From Bacteroidales bacterium (lineage in GTDB: Bacteria; Bacteroidota; Bacteroidia; Bacteroidales; UBA7960), in NCBI GenBank assembly GCA_007118495.1, contig SKRM01000050.1:1-64000 (forward strand): DNA of 64,000 nt, written 5' to 3'. The notes under the pieces were generated by a model. It was not told where the DNA came from, did no database searches, and was given only the letters and a program-made list of their open reading frames with translations. The translations under genes and the position numbers were made by a program. Of the stretch, positions 7,918 to 21,340 are shown in pieces. The first letter of the stretch is position 1. Every line of letters begins with the position of its first letter.

Positions 7918-8189
<272 letters not shown>

Positions 8190-13276: not shown

Positions 13277-13282
13277 CCCCAC

Positions 13283-13434
13283 AAACCATCAAACCATCAA
13301 ACCATCAAACCATCAAACCATCAAACCATCAAACCTTCAAACCATCAAACCATCAAACCATCAAACCATCAAACCATCAAACCATCAAACCATCAAACCA
13401 TCAAACCTTCAAACCTTCAAACCTTCAAACCTTC
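13283..13434 (+). repeat. Octamer tandem array (AAACCATC/AAACCTTC x19) before hydE
   Basis: Nineteen head-to-tail 8-bp units: AAACCATC, except copy 7 and the last four copies, which read AAACCTTC. The array fills the gap between the hydF stop and the hydE ATG, ending 16 bases before it. Bases 13274-13452 contain no G on the + strand, so the transcript here cannot form G-C or G-U pairs within itself. The apparent frame through the array (repeated N-H-Q-T-I-K-P-S) is an artefact of the repeat. Confidence 0.97.
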
Positions 13435-13450
13435 AAACCCATTAACCCAC

Positions 13451-18672: not shown

Positions 18673-19926
18673 ATGGAAAGCAGGATAAAAAACAAACGGG
18701 TTTTAGGAATTAATGGCTTAGGTCGAATCGGCAAACTTACCCTCTGGCACCAATTGGTGACCCGGTATTTTGATGGCGCCGTTATAAACGTTGGCCGCGA
18801 AGTAGGTACCTCACTGGAGCATATTGTCCAGGCAATTGAAACTGATTCTACTTATGGAAATATCTCCAGGTTTATTTATGGAGTGGGAAAAGCCCATAAG
18901 TCTTTTGAAATCATTGATGAGTCTGAAGGATTGCTGGCTTTTGATGGTTTTTTCATCAAGGTGCTCCGTCAGCATCGTAATCCTTCAGAGATCAGGTGGA
19001 AAGATAATGGAGTAAGTATCGTGGTTGATTGTACCGGACAATTTAATGATCCTACACAGTCAGCTGACTCTGCCAAAGGAAGCCTTAGGGGGCATCTTGA
19101 AGCCGGAGCCAGATTGGTAATCTTGAGTGCACCCTTTAAAATAAAAGACAAAGCGAAAAAGACACCCGACGACAGTGCCATGATGGTTTATGGGATCAAT
19201 CACCTTGATTTTTCGCCCGCAAAACACCGGCTGGTCTCAGCCGCAAGCTGTACAACAACCGGACTGGCCCACATGCTCTATCCACTTCTTGATCGAGAAG
19301 AAACGTCACAGATTATGACCGCATCAATGTCGACGGTACATGCTGCCACAAATTCGCAAAATGTGCTGGATGCTGTACCCAAAGCCATGGCTTCTGACCT
19401 TCGAAAAAACAGATCTGTGCTTAACAACATTATAGTTTCAACAACCGGAGCTGCCAAAGCCCTGGAGAGAATCATGCCCCAGATTGAAGAAATTGGCTTT
19501 ATGGCTGACTCTGTGCGTATTCCAACCAATACAGTTTCACTGATCATTCTGAACATTACCTTTAATTCAAAAATGAACGAAAAAGGCGAGCCCGTAGTCA
19601 ACAAAAAATTCCTTGACAGTGTTTATAAAGAAGCAGCCACTGGCCCACAGAAAGGTTTGCTGGTCTATAGTCACAAACAAAATGTATCGGCCGATCTGAT
19701 GGGATTCTCAGCGGCAGTTGTAATTGAAGGTCATGAAACACATACACGTACAGGCTTTATGCATTTACCAGAGGAGGTATTGACAAGTCACGGCCTTTCA
19801 GCAGGAAAGGATCTCCATTTGCCGGTAACCCATGCAAAAATATTCGGATGGTATGACAATGAGTATGGCAGCTATGTAACCACAATGGGAAAATTAATCA
19901 AATACCTCGATCAAAACCTACAATAA
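18673..19926 (+). CDS. Divergent type I glyceraldehyde-3-phosphate dehydrogenase-like protein
   Basis: 417 residues against ~335 for ordinary GAPDH. The Rossmann motif GINGLGRIGK (12-21), catalytic C193 in SAASCTTT, H223 in TVHAATNSQ, TTGAAKA and the terminal WYDNEYGSY are all recognisable, so the catalytic pair is intact. Extra length lies before the Cys and inside the C-terminal half. The usual A-I-N-D stretch that binds the NAD ribose reads V-I-N-V40-G-R42, losing the Asp and gaining an Arg two residues on; this suggests NADP or another cofactor preference. It may oxidise a phosphorylated aldehyde other than glyceraldehyde-3-phosphate. It lies 30 bases downstream of the PPDK-like gene, probably in one operon with hydF-hydE. 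Confidence 0.85.
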   Translation: MESRIKNKRVLGINGLGRIGKLTLWHQLVTRYFDGAVINVGREVGTSLEHIVQAIETDSTYGNISRFIYGVGKAHKSFEIIDESEGLLAFDGFFIKVLRQHRNPSEIRWKDNGVSIVVDCTGQFNDPTQSADSAKGSLRGHLEAGARLVILSAPFKIKDKAKKTPDDSAMMVYGINHLDFSPAKHRLVSAASCTTTGLAHMLYPLLDREETSQIMTASMSTVHAATNSQNVLDAVPKAMASDLRKNRSVLNNIIVSTTGAAKALERIMPQIEEIGFMADSVRIPTNTVSLIILNITFNSKMNEKGEPVVNKKFLDSVYKEAATGPQKGLLVYSHKQNVSADLMGFSAAVVIEGHETHTRTGFMHLPEEVLTSHGLSAGKDLHLPVTHAKIFGWYDNEYGSYVTTMGKLIKYLDQNLQ

Positions 19927-19973
19927 AAACCAAACCCTTAACCCCATAACCCATAAACTCACTAACTGTTTAA

Positions 19974-20099
19974 CCTTCAAACGCGGCGAAGCCGCCTAAC
20001 TTTCAAACTTTCAAACCTTCAAACGCGGCGAAGCCGCCTAACTTTCAAACCAGCGAACCTTCAAACGCGGCGAAGCCGCCTAACTTTCAAACTTTCAAA
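19974..20099 (+). repeat. 42-bp tandem repeat x3, each carrying a GCGGC-GAA-GCCGC hairpin
   Basis: Three copies start at 19974, 20016 and 20058, exactly 42 bases apart. Each has an identical 35-base core and a 7-base linker (TTTCAAA, CAGCGAA, TTTCAAA). The core contains the perfect hairpin GCGGC-GAA-GCCGC (first copy 19983-19995), flanked by octamer-like AAACTTTC and AACCTTC words. The array ends 8 bases before the ATG of the flavodiiron gene. The words match the octamer array before hydE. The 42-base period is close to four DNA turns, so the three hairpins face one side of the helix. Confidence 0.96.
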
Positions 20100-20107
20100 C
20101 CCTTAAT

Positions 20108-21340
20108 ATGAAACTAGTAAAAGATATAAAGCAGCCGGATACCCAGGTGTTGGAGATAACTCCTGATGTAAAATGGGTAGGAGTAATAGACTATGATATC
20201 GTCACCTTTGATGTGGTGATGGAGACTGAATATGGAACTACCTACAATTCATATTTTATTGATGCAGATAAAAAAGCCCTGGTAGAAACCAGCAAGGAAA
20301 AATTCTGGGATGTTTACCTGGCCAAACTTATCCAGGTAACCAATCCTGCAGAGCTCGAATACATCATACTGAACCATACAGAGCCTGACCATAGCGGTAA
20401 TCTGGCTAATTTGCTGGAGCTGGCTCCAGAAGCCACTGTTGTTGGTACACGACTTGCCATTAGCTACCTGAAAGATTTTTTAGGCAAAGATTTCAGACAT
20501 ATGATTGTTAAAGACGGCGACACACTTAGCCTGGGAAACAAAACCCTGCGTTTTATCGGTGCGGCCAATCTGCACTGGCCAGACAGCATGTATACTTACC
20601 TTGAAGAGGATAAATTGCTTTTTACCTGCGACTCATTCGGATGTCACTATGCGCATCCCGAAATGATCGATAATAAGGTTGGTGACTTCAGCGATGCTTT
20701 CAAATATTATTTTGACGTTATATTAAAGCCTTTCAGTAAGTTCTTATTAAAGGCCATAGAGAAAATCAGGCCATTGGAAATCAATGCTGTGCTTACAGGT
20801 CATGGTCCTTTGTTGCTTCATGACTGGAAAAAATGGGTTGATCTTTCAGAAAACTACGCAAAAGAGGCCGTTCAGACACCCCAAAAAGATCATGTATTTA
20901 TTCCTTACGTGTCTGCATACCATAACACCGGAATAATGGCTGAGGCCATCCGTGATGGAATTTTGAGTGTTGGTGAGTTTACTGTTGAAGTTGCAGACAT
21001 TGAAACCATGCCATTGGGCGATGTTGATGAGAGGGTGGCGAAAAGCAGTGCCATTATAGTGGGCTGTCCAACCATAAACCAGAATATTCTGCTGCCGATA
21101 TACAAACTTTTTGCGGTTATCAGCCCCATCAGAGATAACCGGAAAATAGGAGGATCGTTTGGATCATACGGATGGAGTGGAGAGGCCGGTAAACTGATAA
21201 ATTCGACGCTTGGCAACCTGAAACTGGACGTGCAAGGTGATGGTGTATTTATTAAATTTACACCCCATGAGGATGAATACAGGCTTTGTTATGAATATGG
21301 CAAGCAAATTGCGGACAAAATGTTAGCCAGTAAATTATAA
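20108..21340 (+). CDS. Flavodiiron protein (FprA family A-type flavoprotein)
   Basis: 410 residues. The N-terminal MBL-like domain binds a diiron centre and has all ligands: H90, E92 and D94 in HTEPDH, H156 in HWPD, D175 in CDSFG and H232 in TGHGP. The C-terminal flavodoxin domain (about 250-405) binds FMN (AIIVGCPTINQN, SFGSYGWSGEA). Family members reduce O2 to water and/or NO to N2O in anaerobes, protecting oxygen-labile enzymes. Location downstream of hydrogenase maturation genes fits protection of [FeFe]-hydrogenase or of radical SAM maturases, but that is inferred. No rubredoxin domain is fused. The 42-bp repeat array occupies its leader. Confidence 0.95.
   Translation: MKLVKDIKQPDTQVLEITPDVKWVGVIDYDIVTFDVVMETEYGTTYNSYFIDADKKALVETSKEKFWDVYLAKLIQVTNPAELEYIILNHTEPDHSGNLANLLELAPEATVVGTRLAISYLKDFLGKDFRHMIVKDGDTLSLGNKTLRFIGAANLHWPDSMYTYLEEDKLLFTCDSFGCHYAHPEMIDNKVGDFSDAFKYYFDVILKPFSKFLLKAIEKIRPLEINAVLTGHGPLLLHDWKKWVDLSENYAKEAVQTPQKDHVFIPYVSAYHNTGIMAEAIRDGILSVGEFTVEVADIETMPLGDVDERVAKSSAIIVGCPTINQNILLPIYKLFAVISPIRDNRKIGGSFGSYGWSGEAGKLINSTLGNLKLDVQGDGVFIKFTPHEDEYRLCYEYGKQIADKMLASKL

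Follow-up and report, generated by a model that had tools for sequence, protein, structure and literature searches.

AAC-punctuated, strand-locked hairpin arrays in the intergenic regions of a Bacteroidales genome

The flavodiiron leader and its 42-bp repeat

We analysed a stretch of 64,000 nucleotides (hereafter the window) from a Bacteroidales bacterium (contig SKRM01000050.1, assembly GCA_007118495.1). On its forward strand, a gene encoding a glyceraldehyde-3-phosphate dehydrogenase (GAPDH)-like protein (18673-19926) is followed by a flavodiiron gene (FprA/flavorubredoxin-like; 20108-21340), both family matches lying below the curated cut-off. The stop at 19926 and the ATG at 20108 are separated by 181 bases, and nearly all of this leader (19927-20107, forward strand) is an array punctuated by the trinucleotide AAC. 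Five degenerate AAC octamers (AACCCCAT AACCCATA AACTCACT AACTGTTT AACCTTCA) occupy positions 19940-19979. Tandem Repeats Finder (period 42, 3.1 copies, score 232) and alignment of the copies then delimit three 42-bp repeats on the same strand, at 19972-20013, 20014-20055 and 20056-20097. Copy 3 equals copy 1 (42/42). Copy 2 agrees with them at 38 of 42 positions, its four changes all falling within one octamer, which there reads AACCAGCG and keeps its AAC.

Each repeat carries an 18-nt hairpin unit on the forward strand (19980-19997, written AAC-GCGGCGAAGCCGC-CT, then 20022-20039 and 20064-20081), and the hairpin itself, the 13-mer GCGGCGAAGCCGC (GCGGC-GAA-GCCGC), lies at 19983-19995, 20025-20037 and 20067-20079. 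The coordinates and Tandem Repeats Finder thus confirm the three hairpins in exact 42-bp steps described by the initial annotation. The 35-base cores that it reported are indeed identical (19974-20008, 20016-20050 and 20058-20092), and the full repeat is slightly longer, as 42-mers starting from 19972. The same annotation placed the end of the cores 8 bases before the ATG, a figure that fits only an end at 20099; the last core stops at 20092, which leaves 15 bases up to the ATG. When up to two mismatches were allowed, the 13-mer was found at three places in the window, a number reached by 1 of 100 shuffles; for the 13-mer without mismatch and at exact 42-bp spacing, chance is negligible.

The leader can be parsed as five octamers followed by three 18-nt units, separated from each other by three octamers. 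The 42-bp period is therefore the sum of one hairpin unit and three AAC octamers (18 + 24), and when a hairpin unit is excised in silico, the octamer ladder stays in register. The stem of all three hairpins is fully paired over 5 bp and lacks the GA/GA mismatch described below. Their 13-mer includes the sequence of the d(GCGAAGC) mini-hairpin, which, like tandem sheared G-A pairs, is very stable in single-stranded DNA. Judging from the sequence, a 42-bp block inside an AAC octamer array was recently triplicated in tandem at this place. Taken alone, such a triplication is ordinary; its interest is that it gives entry to a regular, strand-locked hairpin system.

The Bacteroidetes promoter motif TAnnTTTG is absent from the leader, and Rfam covariance models gave no match in the window at gathering scores. 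A Rho-independent terminator was rejected, the hairpins being followed by CTAACTTTC and no T run.

AAC octamer ladders

The flavodiiron leader contains 13 pairs of AAC at a distance of 8; the highest count in 20,000 shuffles was 5. The part preceding the repeats (19927-19982) has five such pairs, a count equalled by none of 20,000 shuffles. A sister array lies in the same locus, between the hydF stop and the hydE start (13277-13450, forward strand): it is a near-exact array of about 20 copies of AACCATCA/AACCTTCA octamers, with no hairpin. A likeness between these two leaders had been proposed from a few flanking words; it is real and stronger than claimed, as both are ladders of AAC plus five bases, with AAC on the sense strand in each. 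The window also holds, at 8124-8176, a perfect heptamer array of GTAGAAA (7.6 copies), which reads TTTCTAC on the strand of both flanking genes and whose period of 7 differs from that of the AAC octamers.

We then looked for such ladders elsewhere in this genome. Five AACs at 8-nt steps matched at 111 overlapping places, the reversed control at 21. When all 64 trinucleotides were tried at periods 5 to 15 over 334 kb, degenerate ladders were most numerous for AAC and GTT at period 8, with three each. With no word specified in advance, the search returned 11 arrays at lag 8, and none of the remaining lags between 5 and 13 gave more than 4; AAC or GTT was within the top three constant words in 9 of these 11. 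Across the GTDB family, ladders were found in 38 of 47 genomes with a species-specific fill, a count that overstates the AAC signal, since the reversed control also matches in 32 of the 47, presumably through octamer repeats containing CAA. In another species, the orthologous flavodiiron leader (locus L046, about 1250-1500) has its own array of AGCAGATT octamers, and its AAC-flanked hairpin is a different one (CCTGTCTGCC...GGCAGACTG).

A family of GA/GA hairpins in the source genome and its range

The initial annotation had suggested that the hairpins might be a mobile palindromic element, an idea that a core confined to this leader would have contradicted. The genome-wide search found the 13-mer at 10 places, three in the flavodiiron leader and seven elsewhere, and none for the reversed control. 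These further copies, together with a large family of related hairpin units, support the suggestion. To describe this family, we scanned 392,828 bases of the source genome for GC-rich hairpins with a finder that presupposes no AAC and no mismatch type; as this sample was partly picked for matches, the densities obtained are not genome-wide. Among the 242 hairpins found, 118 have one 2x2 internal loop, which is GA/GA (or TC/TC on the other strand) in 94. Three dinucleotide shuffles of the same DNA gave no GA/GA hairpin, nor did 86,925 bases of orthologue loci or 69,061 bases of family ladder loci (one of which, L156, is from the source genome), and five other Bacteroidia gave a single one in 181,473 bases.

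The GA/GA hairpins are punctuated by AAC on one strand only. On the GA strand, AAC lies within 5 nt upstream of all 94 and within 6 nt downstream of 91, with no GTT; the base preceding the upstream AAC is T in 55 cases, C in 33, A in 5 and G in 1. Hairpins with a perfect stem, the type found in the flavodiiron leader, follow the same rule: 36 out of 124 are delimited on both sides, and all 36 have AAC and AAC on the same strand, never AAC facing GTT. Moreover, orientation is shared within every one of the 64 neighbour pairs closer than 80 bp, and 51 of these pairs are spaced by 25-28 bp. Elsewhere, the genome has arrays made up of unlike hairpins, in which AAC bounds every unit on a single strand, and the same hairpin sequences recur at many unlinked places. 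In one intergenic region (L177, G000:C32, 1607-2359), the AAC ladders and the hairpin units lie on opposite strands; a second cluster, 7 kb away, is in the opposite orientation. The initial annotation had also proposed that the hairpins lie on one DNA face. A spacing of 42 bp does make four turns, yet the usual distance between close family neighbours corresponds to about 2.5 turns, which rules out helical phasing as a rule of the family.

We also examined how the stems vary. In a first set of units of one shape (14 distinct 21-mers), 95.9% of cells pair, double changes affect five of the seven pairs, and none of 500 shuffles equalled the covariation score, both GA steps being invariant. In a second set (8 distinct 19-mers), every cell pairs, four of six pairs show double changes and the GA steps are again invariant; the number of double-changed pairs was equalled by 133 of 500 shuffles and the covariation score by none. 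Both sets were picked by shape, which biases them toward pairing and GA steps, so the independent evidence for GA/GA is the word-free count of 94 out of 118. The loops vary among units. The hairpin structure is thus kept while the sequence changes: the arms co-vary and GA/GA stays constant.

The 94 hairpins group into 29 clusters, practically all of which are intergenic. Seventeen lie inside open reading frames of at least 100 aa, and 13 of these are in frames of 100-101 aa made of array sequence, the other four lying where genes end or within a frame that runs off the contig end; insertion into gene bodies was rejected on these grounds. The 49 flanking frames have no common family except two alpha/beta hydrolases, and no transposase appeared among the best 25 of their 110 families. 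In addition, 7 of the 29 clusters lie less than 200 bp from a contig end (G000 contigs C10, C11, C18, C26, C50, C57 and C70), so the arrays seem to break short-read assembly and copy numbers are minima.

We next considered how far the family extends. In the genus, the 13-mer core was found in 2 of 21 genomes, the source genome and one other, whose only copy has no AAC context, and in the GTDB family in 14 of 47. In the sister-genus loci examined, most copies form the tip of a long palindrome and have different flanks: there, GCGGCGAAGCCGC caps an extended inverted repeat whose arms are of the TCATTCCGAAC type and which is not AAC-punctuated. The arms of these palindromes (L106-L123), of the TCATTCCGAAC...GAGGAATC type, can themselves be read as hairpins with a GA/GA step. 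A pattern for the commonest shapes gave 47 matches in the source genome, all hairpins by eye (three with one imperfect pair); nine other genomes of the family gave one or two matches each, none of them a hairpin. At the level of the phylum, a looser pattern matched in 148 of 395 genomes, and among the matches listed outside the source genome, complementary inner arms were seen by eye in isolated cases only, one of which is a sequence common to G113 and G239. The strongest other genome (G277, 30 matches) was set aside as chance in a GC-rich genome. The hairpin family therefore appears to be large and limited to one species, expanded only in the source genome among the genomes searched.

A looser core, GAGCGNAGCGA, is greatly over-represented in some other Bacteroidia and gave 760 matches against 2 for the control in G508, which belongs to another family of the class. 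These elements have no AAC punctuation in the ten places examined, so GA/GA hairpins may range beyond the AAC grammar. In the G508 loci (L296-L299), GAGCGNAGCGA forms part of mosaic elements bounded by GACC...GGACACGCCC ends; hairpins of a similar GA/GA style have expanded massively in this genome. Plasmid and phage collections gave no match to one array, and plasmids none to a second. In viral contigs, an 18-mer matched four times, in unrelated sequence without AAC arrays; a second pattern did not match, and a third matched 54 times, four with a complementary inner stem, none of which was followed by an AAC junction of the present kind. The titles, abstracts and passages of the open literature searched hold no description of AAC-punctuated hairpin arrays, and the core strings have no match in its paper text.

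Finally, all 20 flavodiiron orthologue loci with upstream DNA lack both the core and a strict ladder, which rules out a conserved leader and leaves the protein-binding role proposed for this gene unsupported; the same is true of its regulation by the hairpins. The GAPDH-like and flavodiiron genes, 181 bp apart here, are separated by about 63 bp and about 30 bp in two relatives that keep the gene order and have neither core nor ladder, and by about 398 bp in a third. Given these leaders and gap sizes, the array is either young here or was lost elsewhere. With only about 85% of protein residues in common with the flavodiiron protein, the nearest orthologues are too divergent to show an insertion polymorphism.

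Possible origin of the arrays

The systems closest to these hairpins are the REP elements with their TnpA-REP/RAYT transposases (REPtrons, BIMEs, REPINs), which are also small, intergenic, high-copy hairpins with a short tag 5' of the hairpin foot. E. coli REPs need both the tag and a 2x2 stem mismatch for recognition by the transposase (PMC8266576), and the mismatch is strand-specific, as here. Alternative complementary stem residues are mentioned for REPs in another paper (PMC3733652), and a Bacteroidetes subclass with atypical structures in a third (PMC6006769). The present family is likewise high-copy, intergenic and made of hairpins with a strand-specific irregular stem, the three leader units having regular stems. 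However, its tag is YAAC, with AAC at every one of the GA/GA hairpins, and not GTAG/GTRG or CGTC; the tag stands on both sides of the units in head-to-tail arrays, and the mismatch is GA/GA. Moreover, the REP-associated tyrosine transposase that the initial annotation proposed to look for is missing: the Y1 (IS200/IS605-type) family PF01797 gave no match in the source genome, which is 98% complete, whereas it matches in 5 of 14 control genomes. These hairpins thus work like REPs and cannot be classed as REPs, since their tag differs and no Y1 transposase was found.

The octamer ladders recall the TAACTGA heptamer arrays. As described (PMC4679880), these are intergenic, TAAC-containing short tandem repeats, often just before start codons, that occur in Bacteroidetes among others, and relatives may be without them. 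The present ladders differ in having a period of 8, with AAC as the sole constant part and a variable fill of five bases, and hairpin units use the same punctuation; membership of this type, which has a fixed heptamer, was therefore rejected. Other small elements are known: the small dispersed repeats of cyanobacteria are about 21-27 nt long and have no known transposase.

We lean, by a small measure, toward mobile REP-like palindromes with a YAAC tag, combined with slippage, rather than a gene switch. Dispersal, polarity, AAC punctuation, covariation around an invariant GA/GA, intergenic location and expansion in the source genome were all directly observed; from these we infer mobility via single-stranded DNA, a role of YAAC as both tag and target, and slippage. 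In this reading, each hairpin unit stands 0-2 nt after a (T/C)AAC tag, always on the strand of the tag and mostly with a GA/GA tandem mismatch. The GA strand would fold on single-stranded DNA, and a strand-specific enzyme would recognise the hairpin together with YAAC, move the unit and insert it beside another YAAC. As units would insert beside YAAC, arrays would grow head to tail and octamer ladders could serve as landing strips. Slippage would later copy blocks, such as the 42-bp block of the leader, giving the triplication. Several results count against mobility, namely the perfect stems of the leader hairpins, the absence of a Y1 transposase, the octamer arrays of the 38 family genomes, which lack these hairpins, and contig C48, where four consecutive units are of one kind, i.e. 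local duplication also builds arrays.

These same four tandem units, together with the identity of copies 1 and 3 of the 42-mer, the near-exact array before hydE and the excess of arrays at lag 8, are what would be expected if replication slippage and template switching were the whole story, AAC being the microhomology on which a stalled strand realigns and the hairpins promoting the stalling, with nothing mobile or selected. We consider this unlikely, albeit worth keeping in mind, as local slippage leaves unexplained the identical hairpin sequences at many unlinked places, and template-switch correction of palindromes should erase GA/GA, which is kept while its neighbours co-vary. The position of the flavodiiron array could instead suggest an AAC-rich, G-poor hairpin leader that tunes the translation or stability of the mRNA through an RNA-binding protein: the array ends near the start codon, AAC is on the sense strand here and before hydE, the predicted fold is more stable than shuffles (z -2.7, 0/200 as stable), and TAACTGA repeats before start codons have been proposed as translational sites (PMC4679880). 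However, AAC is sense in 9 and antisense in 5 of the 14 clusters between co-directional genes, so such a role is not general; with unrelated flanking genes, no Rfam match and 20 orthologue loci out of 20 without the core, we regard it as improbable.

An integron-like origin appears more improbable still, to the point that we would be surprised by it. It would make the units attC-like, with GTTRRRY/RYYYAAC punctuation, folded as single strands and moved by a tyrosine integrase. The likeness to attC sites lies in polar, heterogeneous arrays, a folded single strand and AAC/GTT at junctions, some of which fit the core (e.g. GCCTAAC/GTTAGGC). Nevertheless, many junctions fall outside GTTRRRY, no cassette separates units that are mostly 25-28 nt apart from centre to centre, and no integron integrase exceeds the family cut-off (TIGR02249) in the source genome; the five matches below it are of the kind that all 14 control genomes also give.

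Beyond mobile palindromes with a YAAC tag, a broader conjecture can be put forward, which we hold to be rather doubtful. A single strand-specific system cutting YAAC on single-stranded DNA, outside Y1 transposases and integrons, would add, swap and spread both the 8-nt spacers and the GA/GA hairpins, and the intergenic regions of these Bacteroidales would then be written as AAC-delimited units. The AAC-marked octamer arrays found in most genomes of the family suggest a wider process of intergenic writing.

Few repeats are as common in bacteria as small palindromes, and the way in which they spread remains poorly understood. The grammar of the present family is unusually clear, with a single strand, a single three-letter mark, a tandem mismatch that does not vary and co-varying arms, so that the features being recognised can be read by eye and the units offer a direct substrate for assays. 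Should an enzyme turn up, it would count as a new mover of minimal DNA; with no enzyme involved, these arrays would show how far slippage and DNA structure can reach.
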